The notes below the pieces were generated by a model. That model was not told where the DNA came from, ran no database searches, and saw nothing but the letters and a program-made list of their open reading frames with translations. Positions 985-17,329 of a stretch of 36,922 nucleotides of DNA are shown here, piece after piece. Numbering within the stretch: position 1 is the first letter of the stretch; each line of letters opens with the position of its first letter. A program made the translations under genes and the position numbers. The stretch comes from a virus: the IMG/VR virus record IMGVR_UViG_3300034110_000838, positions 1-36,922 of that record; one strand, written 5' to 3'.

Positions 985-1293
985 TCAGGTGGCGGGCCCG
1001 GCGATGTCGCGGGCGTCCAAGTCGATCCGGGCTTCCAGTCCGCCCAGGGACTTTATCAGTGCGGCGAACTTCGGGGAGCTGGCTGGGGTGATCTTGTCCT
1101 CCTTCGGCCCGCGGAGGTGGGTGGCCAGCAGCGCGTCGTCCGCCGGCAAGAACATTTTGCCGGCGTGGGGACCGGAGAGGATGGGGTATGACCCCACGGT
1201 CCAGTAGAAGGGCAGGCCGTGGTCGAGCTGCTCCTTTTCGATGGCCGCGAGGATCTGGTCGGCGAGGGCCGCGTTGGTGACGAATCCGATCAT
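985..1293 (-). CDS. Hypothetical tail-associated protein, 102 aa
   Basis: The start at 1293 (MIGFVTNAALADQILAAIE) is fixed by an ATGA overlap with the stop of the LamG-like fibre gene. The product is soluble-looking, with an amphipathic N-terminal helix, a central aromatic segment (L-P-F-Y-W-T-V-G-S-Y-P), and a Lys/Pro-rich stretch before a C-terminal helix. I do not recognise a catalytic motif. Small proteins of this kind commonly follow LamG-like fibre genes in phages, so an accessory role in fibre assembly or host contact is plausible. No function is assigned. Confidence 0.75.
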   Translation of the reverse strand: MIGFVTNAALADQILAAIEKEQLDHGLPFYWTVGSYPILSGPHAGKMFLPADDALLATHLRGPKEDKITPASSPKFAALIKSLGGLEARIDLDARDIAGPAT

Positions 1294-2135
1294 GCGACGG
1301 GCGGCAGTTGTTGCCCGGTGAGGGATTCCCACAGGGTTTTGAGGTTGAGCGTGAAGTTGCCGTCATCGGCGTCGGACATGCCGGTCGCGATGAAGGCGGC
1401 CCCGACACGGTCGCTGCATGGGTTTGCCAGCGTGCCGGCGTTGTTTTCCCCGAGGACGTAGATTGCGACGTTGTTGATGGAGTCCAGCGTGCCGGGCGTG
1501 GCGCTGGCGCTGGCAACGATGCCGGTGGAATCCCGGCAGCGGGTGATCAGCGTGGTGCCGATGGCGCGGCAGGTGATAATGCCGGGGATCGAGTCGAGGT
1601 TGGCGTTGATCAACCGACCGCCGACGAAGTTGGTAAGGTCGAAGTAGTGGGAGCCACCGGCTTCGGTGCTTCGGAGAGGGAGCGTGAGAGCCGGACCCAT
1701 CGAACCGATCAGCGTGCCTGTCCCGGTCGCCGTGGTGCGGAGAGCGCCGATTGTCGCAGAGGTGGTGCTCAAAAACCCCGCGGACGGCGAGAGGCCGGTG
1801 TTGAGGTATCCGGTGGACCCGTCCCCCTGCACGTAGCCCGCCTCATGGTTGACGCTGCCGACCCATGTCCCGCTGGTGCGGGTGATCAGGTCGATGGCGT
1901 TTGCGGACGCGCTGGCCCATACGGGAAGATACAGACGCTTGAGCTTGGTAAAGCGACCGGCTGCCTTTTCACCGAGAATGAAGGTATTCACGGCCAGCCG
2001 TTGCCGGGTGGTGGGGAATACGCCGGCAGCCGCCAGCGTCACGAAGTAGGCCGCTGTTTCCGGCAGCAGGGAGCGCCTGCGGGCAGCCGCGAAGCAGCCG
2101 GGAACCGCCCCGGGGATGGCGCTCGGCAGGTTCAT
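1290..2135 (-). CDS. LamG/concanavalin-like tail fibre or receptor-binding protein, 281 aa
   Basis: The product starts at 2135 (MNLPSAIPGAVPGC) through an ATGA overlap with the 107-residue gene. The N-terminal third is helical. From about residue 85 the sequence takes the form of a jelly-roll (LamG-like) domain: a Gly-rich signature Y-V-Q-G-D-G-S-T-G-Y-L-N-T-G, then alternating beta strands, and a C-terminal helix (S-D-A-D-D-G-N-F-T-L-N-L-K-T-L-W-E-S-L) typical of phage LamG-like fibre proteins. These domains bind glycans and are common at the tips of phage tails. The gene directly follows the gp16-position giant and the 107-residue gene, where T7 keeps its tail fibre gene 17. Receptor binding is therefore the best guess. 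There is no obvious virion-attachment domain, so it may work with the neighbouring small proteins. Confidence 0.8.
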   Translation of the reverse strand: MNLPSAIPGAVPGCFAAARRRSLLPETAAYFVTLAAAGVFPTTRQRLAVNTFILGEKAAGRFTKLKRLYLPVWASASANAIDLITRTSGTWVGSVNHEAGYVQGDGSTGYLNTGLSPSAGFLSTTSATIGALRTTATGTGTLIGSMGPALTLPLRSTEAGGSHYFDLTNFVGGRLINANLDSIPGIITCRAIGTTLITRCRDSTGIVASASATPGTLDSINNVAIYVLGENNAGTLANPCSDRVGAAFIATGMSDADDGNFTLNLKTLWESLTGQQLPPVA

Positions 2136-2455
2136 TTCCAGGGGAGGCGCAGGAGGACGTAGCGAAGGGACTGGCTGGCGGTGCCGCCGGAGATCGTGGC
2201 GTTGAAGACCTTGGCGGTGGCGCGGAATTCCATCCGGCCGGAAGACTCGCTGGCCAGGTTCCAGGCTACCGGGCTGCCGCCGGAGACCCATTCGCTGAAG
2301 CCGCAGGTGTCGGCGTCCTCGGTGGTTTCGGAGGGGGTAAGCGTGCCGGCCAGCAGGCCGGCGGTTTTCACCCACCGGAACATGTAGCGGCAGCCGGGTT
2401 CCGTGGCGACTTGCGCGCTCGCGGCACCGGATCCATTCGTCGTCAGCGTTGGCAT
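2132..2455 (-). CDS. Hypothetical beta-rich tail protein, 107 aa
   Basis: The ATG at 2455 follows a G-rich stretch (AGGGTGGGGGA) that can serve as a ribosome binding site. The product (MPTLTTNGSGAASAQVATEP) is Gly/Ser/Thr rich with alternating hydrophobics, consistent with a small beta-sandwich, and it ends in a basic tail (R-Y-V-L-L-R-L-P-W-K). It is the first gene after a 90-bp spacer that carries the recurrent TGTCGGCAAG motif (2503-2512), so it may start a separate late transcript. Its stop overlaps the LamG-like gene. The family is unknown to me. A fibre or appendage role is inferred from position. Confidence 0.75.
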   Translation of the reverse strand: MPTLTTNGSGAASAQVATEPGCRYMFRWVKTAGLLAGTLTPSETTEDADTCGFSEWVSGGSPVAWNLASESSGRMEFRATAKVFNATISGGTASQSLRYVLLRLPWK

Positions 2456-2502
2456 TCCCCCACCCTGCCACGGCGGGCGGAGCGCGGGAAAGCCACGCGG
2501 CG

Positions 2503-2512
2503 CTTGCCGACA
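2503..2512 (-). promoter_or_regulatory. Recurrent spacer motif TGTCGGCAAG, copy A
   Basis: The minus strand reads TGTCGGCAAGCG here, in the 90-bp spacer upstream of the 107-residue gene. The same 10-mer in the same orientation occurs in the spacers at 19025-19034 and 22837-22846. Thirteen bases (TGATGTCGGCAAG on the minus strand) are identical to the copy at 19025. It is a candidate phage promoter element or regulator site. The function is inference. Confidence 0.4.
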
Positions 2513-2545
2513 TCAGTTCGGCGCGGGGTGCAGCGTGCCGCGGAA

Positions 2546-5500
2546 TCAGTCGGTGCCGGTCGCGTTCTCGACGATGGCGAGGAGATCCCGCAGCAGGTGA
2601 GAGATGGACGCGGCGGCGGCGGCCGAGTCGCTGAACAGGCCGGCGCCGGAGAGGATGGTCTCCGCGTCCTTGGCGGCTTCCTCGAGGTCCGCGGGGCCAT
2701 CGCCTTGGAGAAGATCGGCCAGGCGGGTGATGGCCTTGGGGATGTTCGAGAAGAGGTTCCCATCCGGGAGGTATTCGCCGGCCAGCTTGAATGCGGTGGA
2801 CTCCAGCGCGTCGCCGAGGAACGGGATGCCGCCGAAGGGACCGGTGAGGGAGGCCAATGCCAGGCGCTTCGGATCCCAGTTCTTTTCGTCGAAGGTCTCG
2901 TCGTCGTCATCGTCCCGGAGGTCCCGGGTGGTGGCGCGGATGACGGAGGCCAGCAGGCCGCCGGCGAGCCAGGTGACGGCGAGGGCGCGGGCCTTTGCCG
3001 CGGGGGTCTTGCCGGAGCCGAGGGCGTAGGCGGAGAGCATGAGCTTCTGCCGGGCGTCCGAGGCGAAACTCCAGACGATCCGCACGGCGGGATTCGTCCC
3101 GGTGACTTCGTAGAGGGAGCGGGTGCCGGGGCGGACGGGCTGGGCCACACGATCGGTGGAGCGCTCGGCGGCCTGGCGGGCGTAGGCGTGGGGGTCGGCG
3201 ACTCCGATGGCGCGGGCCTGCTTGAGGTGGTAGTCGAAGGTGATGGCGTAGGTGCCGGCGGTGAACAGGGCGTCCGCGCCGGAGATGGTTTCCCCCATGC
3301 GGCGGGCGAGGTATTTGAGACGGGAGGGCTTGGTGCTGCTGAGACCGTCGAGGGCCTGCTGGACGACCGGAGGCATGGTGGCCTTGCGGCGCTGGATGTA
3401 GTCGCTGCGGAGGGCGGCGGACCAGTCGAGGCGGCCGGCGAAGAGCTTGGCGAGCCGGACCATGTAGGCGGCGGCAGGCATCTCGGCGAGGGCGGCGGCG
3501 AGCTGGGTGGACTGAATGGCAAGGACACTGACGCGGCCGACCAGGGCGACGGCGGCGGCGCGGCCGACCATGCGGCCCATGAGCTGGTTCGCGGCGAGGT
3601 GGGCGGCGGCGTCGCGGGTGCCGCCCTGGGCGAAGACATCGAGCCAGCCGCGGAGGGTCTGGAGGGTTTCCTTGCCGGCGGCGGCCTCGACGGAGTTGCC
3701 GACGTTGCGCGCGTTGATGAGGGCCATGGCCTCGGTGGCGAAGGGAGAATACGCGATGAAATGCTCCATCTGCTTGGAGTGGGCGATGTAGGTCTGGAGG
3801 GCATCGCGGAAGTCCGGCTCGGCGATGGCGGTCTGGGAGCGGGTCTTGAGGGAGCCGGGGGTGAGGCCGGCGCCGGTCATGGTGGACCCGGTGACGGGGT
3901 CGAGGGTCTGGCCTGCGCCGGCCTGGGCGGGCTTTACGGTGAGGGGTGAATAGTGGGCGTGCCGCGGGAGGGAGACGCCGTAGAGCTGGCGGAAGACGCT
4001 GTTGAGCCGCTCGTATTCGGCACCGTATTGGGCGGCCAGGTGGAGGCGGATGGCTTTGGCGTTGTCGGTGAGCTGGTCCTCGAGCTGATCGACAAAGTCC
4101 TGGGTGTAGTTCCACTCGCCGGCGGGTGCGCCCTGGTCGTCAACGTGGCCTTCCATGTGGCGGCGGCCGTCTTCCTGGCGCCACATGAGGGTGGCGGTGA
4201 TGGCCTCAAGCTGGCTGAAGGTGTGGGTGCGGCCCTTGGCATCGGTGGCGGTGATGCCCTTGGCGTCGGACATCTGGAAACGGAGCTGTTCGCCCTGGAG
4301 CTTGCCACCGGCGAGGGAGGCGAAGAGGTCGTCGAGGAGATCGAGCTTGTGCTGGAGGGCGTCGGCCTTGGCATGGGCGGCGCGGCGTTCCCAATCGACG
4401 AGGGCCTCAGCGTCCGGGGTGCCTTCGCCGAAGGCCTTCTGGACGACCTGTTCAAAGGACATGAGGGAGAGGCCGGCCTTGAGGACGCGGCCGGTGCGGG
4501 TGCCTTCGTCCCGCTGGGCACGGGTTCGGCGTTCCTCGCGGGTGCCGGCCTTGCCGGTGGCGGCGGAGAGGTTGGCGCGCTTCTTGCCGCGATCCTCGCG
4601 CTGGCGGGACATGCGGATCTTCTCCTCCATGTAGCCGGACTCGAAGACGCGGGTGGCTTCGAGGACGGCGGCCTCGCGGCGGGCGGCGCTTGCCTTGCTC
4701 CAGTCGCCGACCAAGCGGACAAGATTGGCCTGGAGCATGGCGTGGGCCTGCTGGTCGGGGGTGAGGTCTTCCTGCTCGGCGAGGATCTCCAGCCGGGTGG
4801 CCTCCGCCTCAGTCTCGGCGGCGGTGAGGGTCATGGCTTCGCGAAGGTCGGCGAACAGGCTGTGGACGTCGGCACCAATCTTGCCGCGGGGGCGCTGGCC
4901 GGCCTCGTTGCGCTCCGGGGTGGCACGGGCGAGGAGGTTGAGGAATTCGAGGTGATACTGGCCCTTGAGCCATTTCTCGAGTTCCTGGTCGGTCTTGGCG
5001 AGGCGCTCGCGGAGGAATTGGAGGCCGGCGTCGGGGTCGGCGATGCGGGCGGCTTGGACCCAGCCGCCGACCTTGCCGCGGATTTCGGCGGGGACGGAGG
5101 AGAGGATGGCATCGAGCGCGGCGAGGCTGCGGAGGATCTCCTGGCGCGGGGAGTAAGTGGTGGCCTGGGTGTCGACCTGGGTGGCGAGCCAGGCGTTGGT
5201 CTCGGCCTTGGCGACGGTGCGGGCTTCGCGGAGGTCGGCCTTGGCCGCCTCCAGCACTTTCTTCATGCTGGCGACGTGGCGGGCCTCGGATTCGAGGGCC
5301 TGCCAGAGGGCGTCCGTGGTGGGTTCGCGGAGGAGGCCGGCGTCGAAGGCTTCCTGCGCGGCCTGGTCGGGGGCGAGGTCCCCGCCGAAGACGGTGCGGG
5401 AGACGCCTTCGGAGCCGTCGTAGTCGCCGGGATTGTGGAGGGTGAAGAGGTCGGGGTGCTTCTTGATGGCGGCGGTCTTGCTCATCAGCCGGCCGCGGAG

Positions 5501-8500
5501 GGAGCTGGAGGAATCGGCGAAGAAGGAGTGGACGGGCTGGGCGCGGAGCTTGGTCAGGTCGTCATCGGAGAGGATGGCGCCGTGGCGGGCCCAGGCCTCG
5601 TTCTCGAGTTCCGCGCCGCGGAGGGCCTGGCGGACGGCGGCCTCCCGGGTGAGGGCGCGCTTGAGGCGCTTGGTGCCGGAGAGCAGCTCGAGCCGCTCGG
5701 CCTCGAGCCGCAGGTCCTCGAGCTTGCGGCTGACGCGCTCCATGGCCTGGGCGCGGCGGAGCGGGTTCTGGATGCGGCGGATGGAATCCTGGGCGAGGAC
5801 GCCGAGGCGGCGGGAGCCGAGGGAGAAGGAGGGGGCTACTTCCGCGGCTTGCTGTCCGCTTCGGCCAGCGCTTCGGCCAGCTCCTTGTCCGAGAATTCCG
5901 GCAGGTCCTGGCTGAAGTCCGCCGGCCATGCCGGTCCTTTCGAGACGAATTTTTCCGCGCTCGAGGGTGACTTTGAGGTTGGACTGCTGGGTCTCGGCCC
6001 CTTCGGTGAAGTAGCTTCCATTGCGGAGGGTATTGTGGACGTCTTCGGCCGTGATGGCAACGCCAAAGGCGCGTTGAAGATCCTTTGTCAGGTCGAGGGA
6101 ACTGTGCCCGACGGCTTCGTTTTTGATCGCATTCCACCCGTGCCAGTGCATGCCGCCCGGGTTGGCATGGTCGCCCAGGTGGGCCTTAAGTTCCGGGGAC
6201 TTGTTGATGGCTTCTTGCAGCACCACCTCGAAGGCCTCGTACATCGCCAGCGAAAGGACCGGGTTGTCCGAATCCACCTGACCGTAGACGCCATAAATGC
6301 CGGTGGGATCTGAAGGGGTGTTCTGGCCGTAGCGGAAGAAGTCGGAGGTGGTTTCCGCGCCGGTGCCTTCCATGGCAGTGGGCAGCCAGAACTCCACGAA
6401 CTTCCAGCGGTCCATGATGACACCGGGCACGCCGAAGGTAAGGCCGATGAACCGCTGCACCTTGTTCTTGATGCCGAGGGCACCAGCATCGAGCGCCCAG
6501 AACCGCCGGCCCATCTCGCGGGAGGTCGGGGCCGCGTAGACATCCGCGGCGTCCTGCCAGCGACCGTTGAGGTTGCGGAGCATGAGGAAGAACGAATTGG
6601 CGTTGGCCGTGGCGCTGTTTCCGACCTGGCCGGCGTCTTGTGCTGATTCCTCCCGCGCGGCGCTGACGACTTGCTCCCAATCGGCAAGACCCATGTCGAA
6701 TGTGCCGTCAATCGACGACTGGATGGCATCGAGCACGGGCCGGTGGGCGATCAAGCGCAACCACATGCCTTCCTGCTGGAGGGGTGGCAACATCCGCGAA
6801 AGGACGCCCCACAGGTGATGCAGGGCGACCGCCCAAGGTGCTGGTGCTTGGCCTTCGCCGATGATCTCCCGCATTTCCCGGGTTCCGTCCAGGCCTTGCC
6901 GGGCGCTTTCCTGCGTCGAGTCGATGGTGCGCTCGCCGTGATACTCGCCGTTGAGCTTGGCGACGTAGGCCGCCGGATCGTTGATGATTTCCGCCAGGCC
7001 GCTGGGAGGCATGGGGACCTTGCCGTAGATGCCGGCCATCCGCAGGAACTTGACCCAGCCGGGGCCGGTGGTGATCCGCGCGGGGTCTGCCCGCAGATAC
7101 TCGAGAGCCTCGTCCAGCCGCGCGAAGAACTTGGCGCGGGCGGCCGGGGTGTTCAGCACTTTGGGCAGGCTGGTCGCCTTGTCCTGCTCGATGTCCCACA
7201 CCGGCAGGCTATCGGTGCGGATGGCCGTGACGCCCTTCGGAGGTTTGATGCGGAGCCGGCTGGGGGCGATGGAGAAGGACGGGGCGGCCAGGTTGGCCAC
7301 GTAGATGGAATCCGAGGGATAGCCGGCGAGCATCTCGAGCGAGGTGATCGGTTCCGGCTGTTCGTCCATTTCAGAGACCGCGAAGAGTTGCCGGCCATCG
7401 GCAAAGAGGGCCTCGGCTTCCTGCTTGTTGGCGACGGGCTGGAGGTCGTCAGCAGCAACGGAGTCGAAGGGTGACATCCCGCGGCGACGGCCAAGGCTGA
7501 ACGGATCGCCTTCGAGCGGGGCAGGTTGCGCGCCGTTGAGGATCGCGGCCTCCGCGTCGCGGGCTTGCTGGTCGTAGTCGATCTGCTCGTCCACGCCGAG
7601 GAGCTTGGCGAGGTAGCCGTCGTAGGTGGCGGCGTCCAGGGTGCCATCGGCGAGGCCGCGCTTGATCTGGGCGGCGCGATCGATGGCGAGGCCGAAATAC
7701 TCGCGGATGGCGGCGATGAAGCTGCGGAACTTGCCGAGGCGCTGGTCGCCGAGGAGGCGGGCGAGGGCGGAGAGGTTTTGGGAGACGATGCCGGCCGGGA
7801 GCTGGCGCTGGCCGCCTCCCTTGCGGGTGCGGACGACTTCGGCTTCGGCGATGGCGGAGATGGCTTCGTCGAGGGCGGTCTCCTGGTCGGACTCGGAGAG
7901 GGTGTCGAAGTCGGCGGGGAGTAGCTGGAGGGGCTTGCCTTCGCGGGTGGTGCGGCCTTGGAGGACCTGATTGACGGCATTGACGAAGGCGACGTCGTCC
8001 TCGCGGGTGAGGGTGCCGCGGGCGTGGGCCTGGCGGCGGAATCCGTGGGTCTCTTCGTGGAAGACGTCGAGGACGCTGCCGCCTTCGAGGATGCGGTTGA
8101 CGGTGCGGAGCTGGCCTTGCGCGAGTTCGGTGCGGGATTGGCCGAGGACGATGTTGGTGACGCTGCCATCCCCTCCCATGAGGCGCTCCTGGGCGGCGAC
8201 GCGCTCGCGGGCGCTGGCGGATTGGGCGGCGGCCTGCTCGGCGGTGAGGGTGCGGCCGAGGTCGAGGTCGATCTCGGTGGGGCGGTCGGTATCGGTGCCC
8301 CACTGGCCGGAGACTTCCGCGGCCTGGTAGGCGGTGAAGACGGTGGCGATTCGATCGGCGTCCTGGTCGGCGGAGAAATTCGCGTGGGTGGTGGCGAGCT
8401 GGGCGGCGCGCTGCCAGTCGGGGGCCTGGCCGATCTCGCTGCCGGTGGCGGTGTCGTAGAGGGTCCAGGTGCCATCGGTGCCGCGGACGGCGCGGGGCAT

Positions 8501-10297
8501 GATGCCATTGTCGGAGGCAGCGGCCACGGCGTCCTTTTCGGCTTGGAGAGTCTCGGCGAGTTCCTGGGTGGCTTCCATGGCGTCCTCGCTGCGGGGATCG
8601 CGGGCGGCGAGTTCGGCCTCGATGGTCTGCTCGGCCTGGTAACGGCCTTGCGCCTGGGCGGCGCGGATGCGGGCGATGCCGTCCTGGGAAATGCCAAGGA
8701 CGCGGAGGTGGAGGTCGGGAGCCTCGGCGAATGCCTTTGCCCGGCCTTCGGCGGAGAGCCCGCCGGCGCCGCCGATCAGGGCGAGGGGAAGGATGGCCAC
8801 GGCGGTGGTGGCGGTCTTTTCCCAGTAGCCGTCGAAGAATCCGTCCTTGCCGTTCTTCCAGACGACACCGGGGACGTCCTGCTCGAGGGCGCTGGCGGCG
8901 TCCTGGAGGAGGGCCGGGATGAGGTCCTGGGTGTTTTCGATGGCGGTCTCGAAGCCGGCGATGGCCCCGGTGCGGGCGGCGTAGCGGCCGGCGGTGGAGG
9001 TGATGCGGTTGGCGGTGGCGGCGAGGGCCTTCTCAAGGCCGGGGAGCTTGCCGACCAGGGCACCGGCCCCGATGCGCTCGAGGGCGGCCTGCGGGATGGC
9101 AATGAGAGGGGCGAGGCCTTCCGCGGTGTCGCTGGCATCGGCATCCGACATGCCGCCGTCCATGAGGGTGCGCCGCATGTCGCGGTAGGCGCTCTCCTCC
9201 ATGTGGTAGTAAGTGGCGGCAGCGCCGGCGAAGGGGACCAGGGCGGCGGCGCTGGTGGCGATGGCGCCGGGCGCGGCGTAAGCCCCGCGCTCCAGGGTGC
9301 GGAGGATGGCGGAGTCGGGGTTGAGGACCTTGACCGGGTCGTAGGTCTCGTTGCGGATGCGCTCGACGTCGGCGATGAAGTTCTTGCGGGAGCGGTCGGC
9401 GGTGGCGGCGGCCTGCTCGCCCATGGGATCGTAGTCGTTGAGCGGGGATCCGGTGTCGAGGGCTCCGCCGATGCCTTCGAGGACGTTGACGGCCTGCCCT
9501 TGGATGTCGCGGCGGGCCTGCTTGGCGAGATTGCTCCAGAATGCGGGCTGCTGCTCGGCCGGGAGGGCGCGGGCCATGACGGCGAGGGAGGCCATGAAAG
9601 CCTCGCGGTTTTCCTCAGGGACCTTGTCGTAGGCGTCGTACCAATCCGCGCCGCCGGACTGCATGGAGTTCCAGACCTGTTTGAGCGGGCCCAGGTAGGG
9701 CTCGACGTTCCGGCGGAGGGCGGTCTGGGTGTCGCGCCAGGCTTCCATGTAGGCGAAATCCATGCCGGGCTGGTAGCCGGGCTTGCCCTTGGCTTCCTGC
9801 CGCCAGAGCTGGAAGGATTGCGAATCCAGGCCGGCATCGGAAGTCTCGCGGAGGAGGGCGCCGGCGGTGGCGCTGGCCTGCATCTCATGGGCAAGGTCGA
9901 GTGTCTGCTTGCGCTGGGTGGCGTCCTTCTCGATCTCCCCGTAGAACGCCATGTCATCGCCCCGGCCGCGGCCTTGGAATCGCTCGTCGGCGATCCGGTC
10001 GCGGAGCAGGGCGCGGGAAAGTCCCTTGCCCACGGGCTGGTCGCTGTTGATTTCAAGCCATGAATCAACGACCAATGATTTGCGGGCCCGATCCGGGCTG
10101 CGGTCGAACGACAGGTCGATTCCCTCGAACTCCTTGTCCGGCTCGAAGATGGCACGGTCGAGGCGCGCGGTGTTTTCCCGGCGCCATGCGTCCATTTCCA
10201 TGGCCTCTTTCGCCTGTTGTTCTTCCCATGGCCGGTTGAACTCGGCGACCAGGGGATTCGTCGTGTCTTCGGGGATGCCGGAGGTGAGGGAAAGCAT
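2546..10297 (-). CDS. Giant polyvalent-type internal virion (ejection) protein with HExxH metallopeptidase signature, 2583 aa
   Basis: This gene occupies the T7 gene 16 slot and takes about 21% of the genome; T7 gp16 is about half as long. Such proteins are packaged in the head and ejected with the DNA. Visible parts: an acidic N-terminal region; hydrophobic segments near residues 340-364 and 495-513; a zinc metallopeptidase signature H-E-E-T-H at 747-751 with a plausible third ligand in D-E-A-I-S at 811; F-S-L/I motifs at 933, 1008 and 1491; long Glu/Arg-rich coiled-coil stretches about 1500-1900; and hydrophobic helices near 2435-2456 followed by five Asp residues. This fits the polyvalent protein class (multi-domain effectors delivered into the host), which often carries metallopeptidase domains. 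I see no transglycosylase motif; the lysozyme is in the next protein upstream. The start at 10297 lies 4 bp after the preceding stop in the context TGATCCCATG. Between about 5836 and 5965 another frame has better codon use. Confidence 0.85.
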   Translation of the reverse strand: MLSLTSGIPEDTTNPLVAEFNRPWEEQQAKEAMEMDAWRRENTARLDRAIFEPDKEFEGIDLSFDRSPDRARKSLVVDSWLEINSDQPVGKGLSRALLRDRIADERFQGRGRGDDMAFYGEIEKDATQRKQTLDLAHEMQASATAGALLRETSDAGLDSQSFQLWRQEAKGKPGYQPGMDFAYMEAWRDTQTALRRNVEPYLGPLKQVWNSMQSGGADWYDAYDKVPEENREAFMASLAVMARALPAEQQPAFWSNLAKQARRDIQGQAVNVLEGIGGALDTGSPLNDYDPMGEQAAATADRSRKNFIADVERIRNETYDPVKVLNPDSAILRTLERGAYAAPGAIATSAAALVPFAGAAATYYHMEESAYRDMRRTLMDGGMSDADASDTAEGLAPLIAIPQAALERIGAGALVGKLPGLEKALAATANRITSTAGRYAARTGAIAGFETAIENTQDLIPALLQDAASALEQDVPGVVWKNGKDGFFDGYWEKTATTAVAILPLALIGGAGGLSAEGRAKAFAEAPDLHLRVLGISQDGIARIRAAQAQGRYQAEQTIEAELAARDPRSEDAMEATQELAETLQAEKDAVAAASDNGIMPRAVRGTDGTWTLYDTATGSEIGQAPDWQRAAQLATTHANFSADQDADRIATVFTAYQAAEVSGQWGTDTDRPTEIDLDLGRTLTAEQAAAQSASARERVAAQERLMGGDGSVTNIVLGQSRTELAQGQLRTVNRILEGGSVLDVFHEETHGFRRQAHARGTLTREDDVAFVNAVNQVLQGRTTREGKPLQLLPADFDTLSESDQETALDEAISAIAEAEVVRTRKGGGQRQLPAGIVSQNLSALARLLGDQRLGKFRSFIAAIREYFGLAIDRAAQIKRGLADGTLDAATYDGYLAKLLGVDEQIDYDQQARDAEAAILNGAQPAPLEGDPFSLGRRRGMSPFDSVAADDLQPVANKQEAEALFADGRQLFAVSEMDEQPEPITSLEMLAGYPSDSIYVANLAAPSFSIAPSRLRIKPPKGVTAIRTDSLPVWDIEQDKATSLPKVLNTPAARAKFFARLDEALEYLRADPARITTGPGWVKFLRMAGIYGKVPMPPSGLAEIINDPAAYVAKLNGEYHGERTIDSTQESARQGLDGTREMREIIGEGQAPAPWAVALHHLWGVLSRMLPPLQQEGMWLRLIAHRPVLDAIQSSIDGTFDMGLADWEQVVSAAREESAQDAGQVGNSATANANSFFLMLRNLNGRWQDAADVYAAPTSREMGRRFWALDAGALGIKNKVQRFIGLTFGVPGVIMDRWKFVEFWLPTAMEGTGAETTSDFFRYGQNTPSDPTGIYGVYGQVDSDNPVLSLAMYEAFEVVLQEAINKSPELKAHLGDHANPGGMHWHGWNAIKNEAVGHSSLDLTKDLQRAFGVAITAEDVHNTLRNGSYFTEGAETQQSNLKVTLERGKIRLERTGMAGGLQPGPAGILGQGAGRSAGRSGQQAAEVAPSFSLGSRRLGVLAQDSIRRIQNPLRRAQAMERVSRKLEDLRLEAERLELLSGTKRLKRALTREAAVRQALRGAELENEAWARHGAILSDDDLTKLRAQPVHSFFADSSSSLRGRLMSKTAAIKKHPDLFTLHNPGDYDGSEGVSRTVFGGDLAPDQAAQEAFDAGLLREPTTDALWQALESEARHVASMKKVLEAAKADLREARTVAKAETNAWLATQVDTQATTYSPRQEILRSLAALDAILSSVPAEIRGKVGGWVQAARIADPDAGLQFLRERLAKTDQELEKWLKGQYHLEFLNLLARATPERNEAGQRPRGKIGADVHSLFADLREAMTLTAAETEAEATRLEILAEQEDLTPDQQAHAMLQANLVRLVGDWSKASAARREAAVLEATRVFESGYMEEKIRMSRQREDRGKKRANLSAATGKAGTREERRTRAQRDEGTRTGRVLKAGLSLMSFEQVVQKAFGEGTPDAEALVDWERRAAHAKADALQHKLDLLDDLFASLAGGKLQGEQLRFQMSDAKGITATDAKGRTHTFSQLEAITATLMWRQEDGRRHMEGHVDDQGAPAGEWNYTQDFVDQLEDQLTDNAKAIRLHLAAQYGAEYERLNSVFRQLYGVSLPRHAHYSPLTVKPAQAGAGQTLDPVTGSTMTGAGLTPGSLKTRSQTAIAEPDFRDALQTYIAHSKQMEHFIAYSPFATEAMALINARNVGNSVEAAAGKETLQTLRGWLDVFAQGGTRDAAAHLAANQLMGRMVGRAAAVALVGRVSVLAIQSTQLAAALAEMPAAAYMVRLAKLFAGRLDWSAALRSDYIQRRKATMPPVVQQALDGLSSTKPSRLKYLARRMGETISGADALFTAGTYAITFDYHLKQARAIGVADPHAYARQAAERSTDRVAQPVRPGTRSLYEVTGTNPAVRIVWSFASDARQKLMLSAYALGSGKTPAAKARALAVTWLAGGLLASVIRATTRDLRDDDDDETFDEKNWDPKRLALASLTGPFGGIPFLGDALESTAFKLAGEYLPDGNLFSNIPKAITRLADLLQGDGPADLEEAAKDAETILSGAGLFSDSAAAAASISHLLRDLLAIVENATGTD

Positions 10298-12957: not shown

Positions 12958-13355
12958 CAGGGAAGTGGCTTCGCCAAGTGTGTCACGCCGCGGGCCATCA
13001 CGACAAACCCGCACGCCTGGATCTCCGGGACTAATCCGTGTCGGCAAGCGGCGGCAAACAGCATGCGGATGCCCTGGTCGCGGGCGATGGCCTCCAGCCG
13101 AGTGAAGACGGCCAGGCAGGATTGGCGGGCTTCCCAGGCATTCAGCCCGGGCCGCGCCACCAGCCAGTCGATCCACGCGAGGGGCGTCCCCTCCACCCGG
13201 GCCAGCCACGCGGCGGCCAGCGGCCAGTCGCCTTGATCGTATGCCACCACGCCGAGCGGCGGCAGCAGCTCCGGCGGCATGTCGCCCTCGCCGCGCTCAG
13301 GCCACCATTTCAGGATCTCCGGCAAGCGCTCCGGCGTGATGAGTTCAGTCCGCAT
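12957..13355 (-). CDS. gp13-position protein with GNAT-like features, 132 aa
   Basis: The product (MRTELITPERLPEILKWWPE) has the size and pattern of a small GNAT (acetyltransferase fold) protein: an N-terminal helix, a Gly-Asp/Trp-rich middle (Y-D-Q-G-D-W-P-L-A-A-A-W), a helix with A-V-F-T-R-L-E-A-I-A-R, and an L-V-P-E-I-Q-A-C-G-F end that looks like the last GNAT helix and strand. I do not see a clear acetyl-CoA loop, so catalysis is doubtful. It begins inside the nozzle gene, with an 11-bp overlap, and sits where T7 has gene 13, whose product is needed for proper assembly of the internal core. A morphogenesis role is inferred from this synteny. Confidence 0.75.
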   Translation of the reverse strand: MRTELITPERLPEILKWWPERGEGDMPPELLPPLGVVAYDQGDWPLAAAWLARVEGTPLAWIDWLVARPGLNAWEARQSCLAVFTRLEAIARDQGIRMLFAAACRHGLVPEIQACGFVVMARGVTHLAKPLP

Positions 13356-16300
13356 CCCCGTAGACGTTCGCTTTCAGGGCCAGGGTGCGGATGGCGAAGG
13401 GGAAGGGCTCTTCGGAGACCACCGTGACATTCCCCGCGATGTCGTGCCCGCCGTCGAATTCCTTTTCGATCTCGCCGGTGAAGGTGGCCGTGGCGTCGCC
13501 GGCATCGATCGGATCGCCCGGGCCATCCTGCGTCTCGCCCAGGCGTCCGCCGCGGGAGTGGCGCAGGCTCAGGGCCACCCGGTGGATCCGCATTTCGCGG
13601 GACCGGCTCGAGCCGTTCGCCAGCGGGATCTCCGGGGTCATCGGTTGCACGGCCGCGGTGTAGGGCAGGCCGGTGATCATGTCGCTCGACGGCAGCAGCT
13701 CCAGCGGCGCCAGCACCGGCGTGCCCGTGATGCTGACATCCTGCGGGGTCCAGGTGGTGACCAGATCCGGCGTCGGGACATCCTGCCCGCCTACCCAGTA
13801 AGCCCCGCCGCCCACGCGGATCCGCCAGGCGGTGCCGCTCCAGCTGATTTCCGCGCTCGAAAGATTGTCCCGCCAGTATCGCGGCCGGCCGTTCAGGGTG
13901 CCGTTCACGTAGTAGGTGCCCGTTTGATCCGGGACCAGCGTCCCGGTCACCACCTGAGCGTAGTATTCCCCGGGCTCGATCAGGCGGGCGGTCAGCACCG
14001 GATCCGCACCGGGGTCCGCCGTCACGTAGTCCCACGCGGTCACCAGGTCGGGCGATGCCACGTCCTCCGTGCTGAAATACAGATCCGTCCACGCCAGGAA
14101 GATCACCCAGGCGGCGCGGCTCTCGATCCACTGGATGAAGAAGCCTTTCCCCGCGGTCGCGTGCTCGTAGTAGGGCCGGCCGTCGCGGGTGCCGGACGGG
14201 ACGTAAAGCCCGTTCGCGTTCGCCTCGCTCTCCGCGAAGATCAGCGCGCCCAGCCCGGCGACATCCATCCCGGTGGTGAAGGGCCAGTTGGCCCCGTCCA
14301 CGGTCGCCGGCCCGAAGAACTCCCCGGCCAGCCAGCCGGTGGCGTCCAGCCCGTCCAGGTGCGCCGCGTCCGTCAGGTCGAAGGGGGAAGGCACGGCCAC
14401 CGCGGAATCTTGCCACCAGCCGTCATCCGGCAGCGCGTCCATGTGCCCGGGGCGGAAGCGCTCGATGAAGATCGCGCCCTGGCCCCGGTCCACCAGGAAC
14501 CAGACTTCATCCTCCGTCCCCGTGGCGCGGATGGTCCCCACGCTCAGGATGTCGCCCTCCGTCTCATGGCGGTGCCAGGCGGCCACGTTCTGAGCGCGCT
14601 CGTAGGTCAGCCCGTAGAGCTTCCCGCCGGAGACGAACCAGACCACCTGCCACGGCATCCGCTGCACCGCGATGTCCTCCACCGGGCCGGTGAACAGGTG
14701 CTCCGCCAGCAGGTTCAGGTTCGCGGCCTCGTAGCGGTCCGCCTCGAAGCGGTAGGAGAATTCCCGGACCCGCGTCCCGCCGCGCTGGACGAAGAGCGAG
14801 ACGGAATCCGCGAAGCAAGCCGGCACCCCGCCGTTGTGGGAGCCGTAGCTGGAATGCCGCTTCGCCACGCCGAATTCCGGGACGATCGCCTTCTCCTCGT
14901 CCTCCCCGTGCATGATCCACTCGCCGGACCCGGTGCCGATCAGCAGGAAGCGCTCGGAAACCAGCCACAGGATCGGATCCCGCTCGCCGATCGCCACGGT
15001 GTGGCGGTAGCCCTCATCCGCCAGCAGGCCGGGGTAGAATTTTTCGTAGTCGTCCGCCGCGGAGCCCCACACCGTGTGCGGCTTCAGCGTGGTGGCCGCC
15101 ATGACCACGCGCGCCTGGTGCAGCTCCACCACCCCCGGGTAGCCTTGCACGTCGTTCCAGGCGCTTTCCGCCCAATGGTCCGTGGTGGTTAGCTCCACCG
15201 GGGTCAGCACCTCCGCGGAGGCCGTGCGCGCGTCCGTCACCGCAGTCACCCGCACCAGCCCGCGGATCAGCGCGTCGGAGGCGGCCAGCACCCCGCGCGG
15301 ATCGCTGGAGCCGCCGGCACCGTGCGTCCATTTCGTCCGCATCAGCACACGTTTTTCCTCGGTGCCCTCGGTCGAGACGTTCCGTTCCCCGTCCCCCTCG
15401 AAGGCGCGGACTTCCTCCCAGGTCGCTCCCCGGTCGGTGGACCGCTCCAGCGTGAAGGTTCCCTTCCATGTGCCGTAGGTCTCGAAGGTCCACCCGCCTT
15501 GCACCACGATGGTCGGCGAATACAGGCCATTGTTGGCGGAGATCGCTTTGATTTTCGTCTCGTAGTCCGCCGCCGCGCGCTTCTTGGAAATCTCGAACAC
15601 GGCACCGGCGTGCCCGGCCTGCCACGTGTCCCGGCTGGCCGTCAGGCCGATCACCTGGCCGATCACCGCGGACGTGTCGGAAAATCCTTCCACCCACAGC
15701 GGCTTGGTCACCGTCTGGGTCACCCGGCCGGCCACGATCACGGATTCCGTGTAGGTCGCCGTGCCGGTCCCGGGCGCTTTCGTCGCGCCGGACAGATGGC
15801 CTTTCAAGCACACCCAGGTCTTGCTTGTGTAGGTCACCCGGTCACCGGCCGCATAGGTCACCGCCGCGGACGACCACGCCGCGGGCGTGCCGCCCACCGT
15901 GAAGACGGTGCTCACCGTGTGGTCGCTGTCGAGGTTCTCCGGCAGCAGCGCCGGGGACAGGCTGTAGTCCACTTCCACTAGCTCCCAATCGTCCGCCGCG
16001 TATCGCGTCAGCTTGTGGGGCGGATATGACGGGTGGACGAAGTAGCAGACGGAATTGATCTGCCGCCAGCGCAGCAGCTCCAGGTCCGCGTCCGCCCAGG
16101 GCATGGCCAGCACGATGGGCACGCCGGTATCCAGCGCCGGCGCGCCGTCCGCGTAGACCGCCAGCAGGTCGCCGCCCAGAACCAGCATGGCCGCCTCCGT
16201 GGTGGACACCTGGAACTCCACCAGCCGCCCGGCCGTGGCCGCCGCGTCCATGCTGCCCAGGTATTCCATGCCCGGGCGCTTCTGGATGGCACCCTGCGGC

Positions 16301-16422
16301 AGCGCGATGAAGTTCAGCAGCGACCGGCAGCCGGCCGTGTACTTGTCCAGGTCCGTCCGGCCGTCCAGCCAGGGAGATAGCTCGCCCGCGGCAAAGCTCA
16401 GGAGGTGCTTGATGATGGGCAT
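13345..16422 (-). CDS. Tail tubular protein B-like (tail nozzle), 1025 aa
   Basis: The N-terminus has the hallmark of podovirus nozzle proteins: L-S-F-A-A-G-E-L-S-P-W-L-D-G-R-T-D, then K-Y-x-x-G-C, L-N-F-I-A-L-P-Q-G and a K-R-P-G-M-E-Y-L-G motif. It forms the distal part of the short tail, through which DNA and ejection proteins leave. T7 gp12 is about 790 residues. Much of the extra length here lies in the C-terminal third, which holds two copies of a repeated module (about residues 737-811 and 834-904) with N/D-G-R-P-x-Y and D-V-x-x-P-D-L-V signatures. A third copy lies in the adaptor gene just upstream. The start at 16422 has a TGAGGCC sequence close before the ATG and lies 4 bp after the adaptor stop. 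Confidence 0.92.
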   Translation of the reverse strand: MPIIKHLLSFAAGELSPWLDGRTDLDKYTAGCRSLLNFIALPQGAIQKRPGMEYLGSMDAAATAGRLVEFQVSTTEAAMLVLGGDLLAVYADGAPALDTGVPIVLAMPWADADLELLRWRQINSVCYFVHPSYPPHKLTRYAADDWELVEVDYSLSPALLPENLDSDHTVSTVFTVGGTPAAWSSAAVTYAAGDRVTYTSKTWVCLKGHLSGATKAPGTGTATYTESVIVAGRVTQTVTKPLWVEGFSDTSAVIGQVIGLTASRDTWQAGHAGAVFEISKKRAAADYETKIKAISANNGLYSPTIVVQGGWTFETYGTWKGTFTLERSTDRGATWEEVRAFEGDGERNVSTEGTEEKRVLMRTKWTHGAGGSSDPRGVLAASDALIRGLVRVTAVTDARTASAEVLTPVELTTTDHWAESAWNDVQGYPGVVELHQARVVMAATTLKPHTVWGSAADDYEKFYPGLLADEGYRHTVAIGERDPILWLVSERFLLIGTGSGEWIMHGEDEEKAIVPEFGVAKRHSSYGSHNGGVPACFADSVSLFVQRGGTRVREFSYRFEADRYEAANLNLLAEHLFTGPVEDIAVQRMPWQVVWFVSGGKLYGLTYERAQNVAAWHRHETEGDILSVGTIRATGTEDEVWFLVDRGQGAIFIERFRPGHMDALPDDGWWQDSAVAVPSPFDLTDAAHLDGLDATGWLAGEFFGPATVDGANWPFTTGMDVAGLGALIFAESEANANGLYVPSGTRDGRPYYEHATAGKGFFIQWIESRAAWVIFLAWTDLYFSTEDVASPDLVTAWDYVTADPGADPVLTARLIEPGEYYAQVVTGTLVPDQTGTYYVNGTLNGRPRYWRDNLSSAEISWSGTAWRIRVGGGAYWVGGQDVPTPDLVTTWTPQDVSITGTPVLAPLELLPSSDMITGLPYTAAVQPMTPEIPLANGSSRSREMRIHRVALSLRHSRGGRLGETQDGPGDPIDAGDATATFTGEIEKEFDGGHDIAGNVTVVSEEPFPFAIRTLALKANVYGDAD
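13711..13923 (-). repeat. Adaptor/nozzle repeat module, copy 3 (in nozzle, residues about 834-904)
   Basis: This coding repeat reads T-G-T-Y-Y-V-N-G-T-L-N-G-R-P-R-Y-W, then I-S-W-S-G-T-A-W-R-I and Y-W-V-G-G-Q-D-V-P-T-P-D-L-V-T-T-W, ending G-T-P-V-L. It matches the copies at about 13990-14214 (nozzle) and 16870-17089 (adaptor). The order is a turn with N-G-R-P, two Trp-containing strands, then D-V-x-x-P-D-L-V-x-x-W. A small beta domain that could bind a surface ligand is a reasonable inference. Confidence 0.75.
13990..14214 (-). repeat. Adaptor/nozzle repeat module, copy 2 (in nozzle, residues about 737-811)
   Basis: This coding repeat reads N-G-L-Y-V-P-S-G-T-R-D-G-R-P-Y-Y-E, then F-I-Q-W and A-W-V-I, and Y-F-S-T-E-D-V-A-S-P-D-L-V-T-A-W, ending A-D-P-V-L-T. 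The E-D-V-A-S-P block is shared almost exactly with the adaptor copy. Copy 3 follows after about 22 residues, so the two nozzle copies are nearly tandem. Confidence 0.75.
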
Positions 16423-16426
16423 GGCC

Positions 16427-17329
16427 TCAGTATTCGTCGTCCCAGAAGCTGCCGCGGGCCCCGGTCAGGTTCCCCGCCAGGAATTCCTCGAGCGGGTGAT
16501 TCTCCGCGCTTTGGGAGTCGTGCCCGTCCGCCGTGCGGGCCGCCGGCAGGTCCACCGACTCGTAGCGCTGGAGCAGCGTGGTCTCCAGCTGGTCGCTGCC
16601 GCTGATCGCCCGGGCCAGCTTGGATGCCAGCAAGGTCACCAGCGCCGCGACGAACATCGGGTCGTATTCGTCCGGGTCGTCGATCCGCTGGACGTAGCGG
16701 AGCTTGATCTCGTCCGCGTCCGCCAGCACGCAGCGCTTGCCGTTCGCCCGGCGCATCTCGAATTCATCGATCCGGCCCCGCTCCCCGCGCAGCTCGCGCA
16801 GCTTGAGGAAATCCGGAGGGATGGCGAAAGCCGCATCCCGGCCCTCCGTCTCGTCATCCATCAGCGTGGTGATTTCCACGACGCCCGTGCCGGTGCCGAC
16901 CGCCGTCCATTCCTCGACGAGTTCCGGGCTGGCCACGTCCTCGCTGGAGGTGAAGAACACGCCGCCGTTGGCCGGGTAGTCGATCGTCCACAGGCTGCCG
17001 TCCCAGTAGATGAGCGGCTTGGCCAGCGCGATAGTGTCATACTCCCACTGCGTCCGCCCGTTGACCTGCGCGCCGGCCAGGTAGTCGCCGACCAGCGAGG
17101 CATTGATGCCCGCCACGGTGCGGGCGTAGCTGTCCGCCGCCACCTGCGGCTCCAGCCGGACGGAGGTCATGGCAAAGGACCAGAAGAACGCGCGCAGCGC
17201 CTCGTCCCGCGCCTGCCCGTAGTGGAGCTTCGCGTGGCGGGCGTTCTTGTCGTTCGGGTCGTCGATGCTGCTGATCGTCTTTTCGCCGATCTTGAGCAGC
17301 GCCAGGTTGCAGAGTTCCGTCTTGGTCAT
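16427..17329 (-). CDS. Tail tubular protein A-like (head-tail adaptor), 300 aa
   Basis: The N-terminus (MTKTELCNLALLKIGEKTIS) followed by L-H-Y-G-Q-A-R-D-E-A-L-R and F-F-W-S-F-A is the classic signature of T7 gp11-type tail tubular proteins: L-C-N-x-A-L, G-E, then Y-x-x-x-R-D-x-x-L and W-x-F-A. This ring joins the portal to the nozzle. It is about 100 residues longer than T7 gp11. The extra length comes largely from an inserted module (residues about 81-152) that also occurs twice in the nozzle gene. The C-terminus (T-G-A-R-G-S-F-W-D-D-E-Y) ends the protein 4 bp before the nozzle start. A strong terminator hairpin lies just ahead of its start codon. Confidence 0.92.
   Translation of the reverse strand: MTKTELCNLALLKIGEKTISSIDDPNDKNARHAKLHYGQARDEALRAFFWSFAMTSVRLEPQVAADSYARTVAGINASLVGDYLAGAQVNGRTQWEYDTIALAKPLIYWDGSLWTIDYPANGGVFFTSSEDVASPELVEEWTAVGTGTGVVEITTLMDDETEGRDAAFAIPPDFLKLRELRGERGRIDEFEMRRANGKRCVLADADEIKLRYVQRIDDPDEYDPMFVAALVTLLASKLARAISGSDQLETTLLQRYESVDLPAARTADGHDSQSAENHPLEEFLAGNLTGARGSFWDDEY
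16870..17089 (-). repeat. Adaptor/nozzle repeat module, copy 1 (in adaptor, residues about 81-152)
   Basis: The coding segment reads G-D-Y-L-A-G-A-Q-V-N-G-R-T-Q-W-E, then L-I-Y-W-D-G-S-L-W-T-I and F-F-T-S-S-E-D-V-A-S-P-E-L-V-E-E-W. It is homologous by eye to two segments of the adjacent nozzle gene. It appears as an insertion in an otherwise gp11-like adaptor, splitting the N-terminal helical part from the C-terminal half. Confidence 0.72.

Follow-up and report, generated by a model that had tools for sequence, protein, structure and literature searches.

The tail adaptor and the tail nozzle encoded in the window, which at 36,922 bases covers a whole IMG/VR virus record, carry three copies of a mobile domain that belongs to a real but unnamed family, of a kind (optional beta-modules on virions) that is already known. 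Two properties mark it as a mobile accessory domain of the virion: many virion proteins with no homology to one another contain it, and it is optional in homologous ones, being absent from related adaptors and nozzles. AlphaFold2 predicts the domain with confidence as a small beta-meander, which in the model folds independently. As to its role, we put at roughly one half the probability that it is a new mobile decoration domain, displayed on the outside of the tail and likely to serve in accessory binding.

The adaptor (300 residues; 16427–17329, minus strand) and the nozzle (1025 residues; 13345–16422, minus strand) are correctly labelled as such in the initial annotation. The adaptor matches phrog_394 (E 1.5e-37) and, by sequence, the connector of phage Carin-1 (PDB 8ck1_E), while the nozzle is of the phrog_376 type (E 3.4e-138) and is homologous in sequence to the solved Carin-1 tail nozzle (8ck1_A, E 8.4e-54). 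An AlphaFold2 model of the whole adaptor, built from an alignment of 35 rows (pLDDT 87), has the head-tail connector fold of the T7 gp11 type, with a four-helix bundle (residues 3–14, 28–46, 224–243 and 246–269) and an antiparallel beta fiber dock. It superposes on 8ck1_E with Z 21.0 (rmsd 2.5, 191 of 206 residues aligned) and on T7 gp11 (6r21_M) with Z 13.9. From the secondary structure of the model and the domain layout of T7 gp11 (PMC6702177), the first dock strand falls at residues 54–59 (17153–17170, minus strand), just upstream of an insert, and the model together with an alignment to insert-free adaptors places the other dock strands just downstream of it at residues 166–214 (16688–16834, minus strand). 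The insert itself is predicted as a separate beta unit, residues 70–155 (blocks with pLDDT 78–94), joined to the host fold by lower-confidence linkers (residues 61–69 and 156–165, pLDDT 62–75).

This insert is the adaptor copy of the domain (16865–17122, minus strand; profile core 16874–17101), its limits being set by the profile match, the alignment with insert-free adaptors and the linkers of the model. Two further copies were delimited in the nozzle by profile: copy 1 with its core at residues 734–812 and a leading strand from about residue 720 (13987–14265, minus strand; profile match 13987–14223), and copy 2 with its core at residues 831–907 and a leading strand from about residue 823 (13702–13956, minus strand; profile match 13702–13932). 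The three-copy profile found no fourth copy anywhere in the window. One adaptor copy and two nozzle copies are what the initial annotation had reported, and the profile matches lie within about 12 bases of the boundaries it gave. Pairwise local scores among the copies are 85, 68 and 105, compared with shuffle means of about 27 and a top shuffled score of 62, and none of 5,000 shuffles attains any observed score; moreover, a profile of the two nozzle copies, or of the adaptor copy alone, picks out the other protein, at E 3e-8 to 8e-8, from a set with 999 shuffled versions of it. The similarity therefore passes the shuffle control that had been proposed for it. The residues that are invariant among the three copies include G-R, two Trp strands (I-x-W and W-x-I) and D-V-x-x-P-x-L-V-x-x-W. 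The repeat is genuine, but its length had been underestimated: the unit spans about 86 residues rather than 60–75, because a conserved leading beta-strand ending in V-[ST]-G, 9–14 residues upstream of the original start, had been missed. The GC content of the inserts equals that of their surroundings, and composition therefore shows no sign of recent import.

In the adaptor, the insertion is a clean one between the first two fiber-dock strands of the T7-gp11-like fold. Insert-free adaptors pass from a W-[SN]-F-A helix and the first strand directly into a Y-x-L-P-x-D-x-L strand, and it is exactly at this junction that the adaptors of the window and of a relative, L061 (at 57% identity), are longer by about 90 residues. 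The loop is an insertion hot spot, since two other adaptors (L083 and L100) hold a different insert there (AHGLATGD..., weakly E1_FCCH-like). The loci of this second insert are L083:1189-2025 and L100:4177-4995, and its Pfam match is weak (PF16190-like, E 0.037). A motif resembling it also occurs in the nozzle of Vibrio phage PS25B.1 (L065), a protein annotated as chitin-binding type-3.

The two nozzle copies occupy the stretch that separates the last recognisable beta-propeller segment (IERF) from the conserved GLPYTA..PM platform segment; homologous nozzles have only about 60 residues there. The domain is present in 0 of the best 80 nozzle-relative loci, and in the window's nozzle the segment at the canonical dock position is strongly changed. 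In T7, five dock strands form the fiber dock of the adaptor, a second dock joins propeller to platform on the outer surface of the nozzle, and the fibers sit between the two (PMC6702177); in SU10 the dock loops stick out radially from the dock domain (PMC9509320). Comparison of the nozzle family with T7 gp12 by hhalign gave no significant similarity; with the relationship undetectable by profile comparison, it is domain order that suggests that the nozzle copies occupy the place of T7's second fiber dock.

Nozzle copy 2 was also modelled alone with AlphaFold2, from an alignment of 25 family rows (pLDDT 81, pTM 0.73, the first nine residues unreliable). The model consists of five short antiparallel strands followed by a P-D-L-V-T-T-W turn. 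No meaningful fold match to this isolated domain was returned by Foldseek (best E 1.8 in PDB and 0.43 in BFVD) or by VIA (best Z 4.6). MORN repeats, Polo boxes, designed barrels and VgrG tips were considered as fold relatives and set aside, all scoring below meaningful Foldseek and VIA levels. For the predicted structure, then, these searches show no known relative, which in itself is not proof of a new fold.

A scan of the collection with the three-copy profile yielded 10 phage contigs encoding a relative, and second and third scans added more; the iterated profile collects 30 non-identical copies (domain E < 1e-3). Their consensus reads V-[ST]-G-x-G-x-x-x-V-N-G-T-Y-x-x-x-G-x-x-N-G-K/R-P-x-Y ... 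I-x-W-x-G-x-x-W-x-I ... Y-x-S-T-x-D-V-A-T/S-P-D-L-V-T-T-W ... G-x-P-x-v-T. The profile search suggested by the initial annotation thus finds some 30 copies, carried by virion proteins of environmental phages that are unrelated to one another, and the statement that the domain has no named family holds, with no match in Pfam (also queried with the family consensus), NCBIfam or PHROGs. A PDB sequence search with the domain returned nothing, and a literature search for the motif PDLVTTW found no paper. Among 50,697 cultured-phage records and 72,556 plasmids there was no acceptable match, tblastn with single copies and with the consensus giving chance matches only; candidate carriers in Lactobacillus phage Lpa804 and in the human faecal contig MT835805 fail the family profile. 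Cellular genomes contain a single copy, in a Verrucomicrobia bin, which probably belongs to a prophage because it sits downstream of a tape-measure gene. Wider spread in bacteria was considered and rejected, the domain being found in 1 of 193 genomes, namely the one already known to carry it and none of its 192 relatives. The family is almost confined to uncultured phages and is therefore missed by annotation libraries.

The proteins that carry the domain are mostly unrelated to one another, and most match no PHROG. They comprise adaptors, probable tail-module and baseplate-neighbour proteins and the one prophage protein, and wherever their neighbours can be named, these belong to the virion module, namely major capsid and tape measure in L006, tape measure in L002 and L010 and baseplate wedge in L028. 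In some records (L005, L031 and L035) two separate proteins carry the domain or a single protein has two copies of it. The L034 carrier, likewise a phrog_394 adaptor, has the domain at the corresponding site, within a larger insert. Here (L034:3083-4831, plus strand, residues 220–430) the domain is apparently nested in a second domain (GPSGNEISVEIAEA ... NYGASDGTGVVATVAATNLSGGT) that is likely to be mobile too and has itself been inserted into the adaptor.

The domain diverges more quickly than the protein that hosts it, as indicated by the comparison of the window and L061 adaptors, in which the domain is 51% identical and the flanking parts are 67% and 61% identical, with 12 of the 14 gap columns falling within the domain. 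The window copies resemble those of other phages (39–44% identity) as closely as they resemble one another, and they do not group in the family tree, although a forced grouping is not rejected (AU p 0.28–0.33). Of the original description as a mobile domain duplicated within the tail, the mobility is borne out and the duplication is neither supported nor rejected: duplication within the tail is possible, and separate gains are equally compatible with the data.

We propose that phages plug this self-contained mobile beta-domain of about 86 residues into loops of their virion proteins. One copy would here project from the fiber-dock loop of the adaptor and two tandem copies from the propeller-platform segment of the nozzle, so that small knobs would surround the channel of the assembled tail in two adjacent rings on its outside; if the stoichiometry is T7-like (12 adaptors and 6 nozzles), each virion would display 12 + 12 = 24 domains. 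Exposure on the tail surface is suggested by the fiber-dock location, and we hypothesise that the exposed domains bind a ligand, their most likely job being weak, multivalent binding to the host envelope or to a glycan of the matrix. Adhesion appears the likeliest use both by analogy with the Ig-like and BACON decorations of phages and because the same nozzle has a second type of add-on, a CBM_5_12-like stretch (residues 182–215; 15778–15879, minus strand; Pfam PF02839, E 3.7e-5, 24.1 bits, just under the 26.2-bit cut-off). This stretch is also kept in the L061 nozzle. Searches for a ligand site, a catalytic motif or a characterised relative of the domain found none. Conservation is highest at W, W, P, L and W, which may simply belong to the core, and some carriers, such as a 248-residue neck or tail-module protein in L006, may be poorly placed to reach a host ligand.

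The main rival to adhesion is a role in docking the phage's own fibers, in which the inserts would rebuild the docking site for the N-terminus of the fiber or spike, or else brace the rings of adaptors and nozzles. In its favour, the adaptor and the nozzle, the two components of the fiber dock in T7, each have the domain at a dock-equivalent place, the nozzle's canonical dock segment is strongly altered and the close relative L061 retains the domain in its adaptor; yet its absence from all 80 of the best nozzle-relative loci means that this type of tail does not need it, and it is also found in proteins that have no fiber dock. We consider this explanation rather unlikely. A bolder scheme would have a new beta-fold family, confined to tailed-phage virions, acting as an exchangeable cassette for docking or adhesion, with the adaptor and nozzle copies, one set in each half of the fiber-dock groove, forming a composite site for fibers or host ligands. 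We hold this scheme to be a little less likely again, but, if it were true, cassette swaps would re-tool the tail without a change of fiber.

The domain could instead be a tolerated passenger, self-folding and harmless, that spreads by recombination into exposed loops and adds little function here. Its scattered distribution would suit such a passenger, as would the different domains found at one hot-spot loop and the nesting in L034, but even very divergent copies conserve the D-V-A-T/S-P-D-L-V-T-T-W core and three copies have been kept open in one compact genome, which makes us doubt this account more than either of the docking schemes. Least probable in our judgement is a diverged Ig-like, BACON, CBM or E1_FCCH module that escaped both sequence and fold searches. 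Such modules are of similar size, all-beta and used alike, but Pfam, NCBIfam and PHROGs hold no match, Foldseek gave none of meaningful score, and the best VIA hit lies below the level of chance matches. Of these accounts we favour a decoration domain with a likely accessory binding function.

Several other loci deserve mention. In IMGVR_UViG_3300005739_000034, a 937-residue frame (L136:2188-4998, plus strand) holds five tandem diverged adaptor copies (43–65% identical) and lies directly upstream of the nozzle gene; its cultured-phage matches look like single adaptors, and a fused chain of this sort would be odd for a 12-fold ring. In the window, the C-terminal half of the product of 1290–2513 (minus strand) resembles by eye a lectin-type (LamG-like) receptor-binding tail protein; the product has no Pfam match and a weak match to a PHROG of unknown function. 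The 2583-residue protein encoded at 2546–10297 (minus strand), which has no PHROG or Pfam match, is by position likely to be an internal or ejection protein.

Few mobile modules are known as decorations of phage virions, and this family is an addition to them; its profile would account for parts of many 'hypothetical' virion proteins. The findings also suggest that the fiber-dock loop of the adaptor serves generally for insertions in short-tailed phages. If the domain binds host glycans, it would be a small binding module and would allow a test of how tails gain adhesion without new fibers.

Among known systems, the Ig-like add-ons of phage virion proteins are thought to aid binding to surfaces or glycans. 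The same is thought of the BACON add-on domains in crAssphage virion proteins (PMC6949934). Both are likewise small all-beta modules, optional and either inserted or in tandem, that virion proteins unrelated to one another have in common. Neither matches the window domain in sequence (Pfam and NCBIfam models), and Foldseek and VIA returned no fold match; the window domain differs in its predicted short-strand meander with the conserved D-V-A-x-P-D-L-V-x-x-W. It may nonetheless have their Greek-key beta-sandwich fold, although the model is a short-strand antiparallel meander and the Foldseek and VIA rows include no Ig entry. CBM_5_12 (PF02839, chitin-binding-like) is also an aromatic-rich beta module, of about 40–60 residues, and one is present in the same nozzle; PF02839 does not match the domain at E <= 1 or 10, whether searched with members of the 10-copy alignment or with both family consensuses. 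The E1_FCCH-like insert of L083 and L100 occupies the same adaptor loop and is also optional, but is unrelated in sequence. The closest counterparts of the host proteins are T7 gp11 and gp12 and the Carin-1 proteins of 8ck1, the adaptor superposing at Z 13.9–21.0 and the nozzle being homologous to 8ck1_A. T7 gp11 and 8ck1_E have no room for an insert of about 86 residues, and in T7 the fibers are held directly by the docks.
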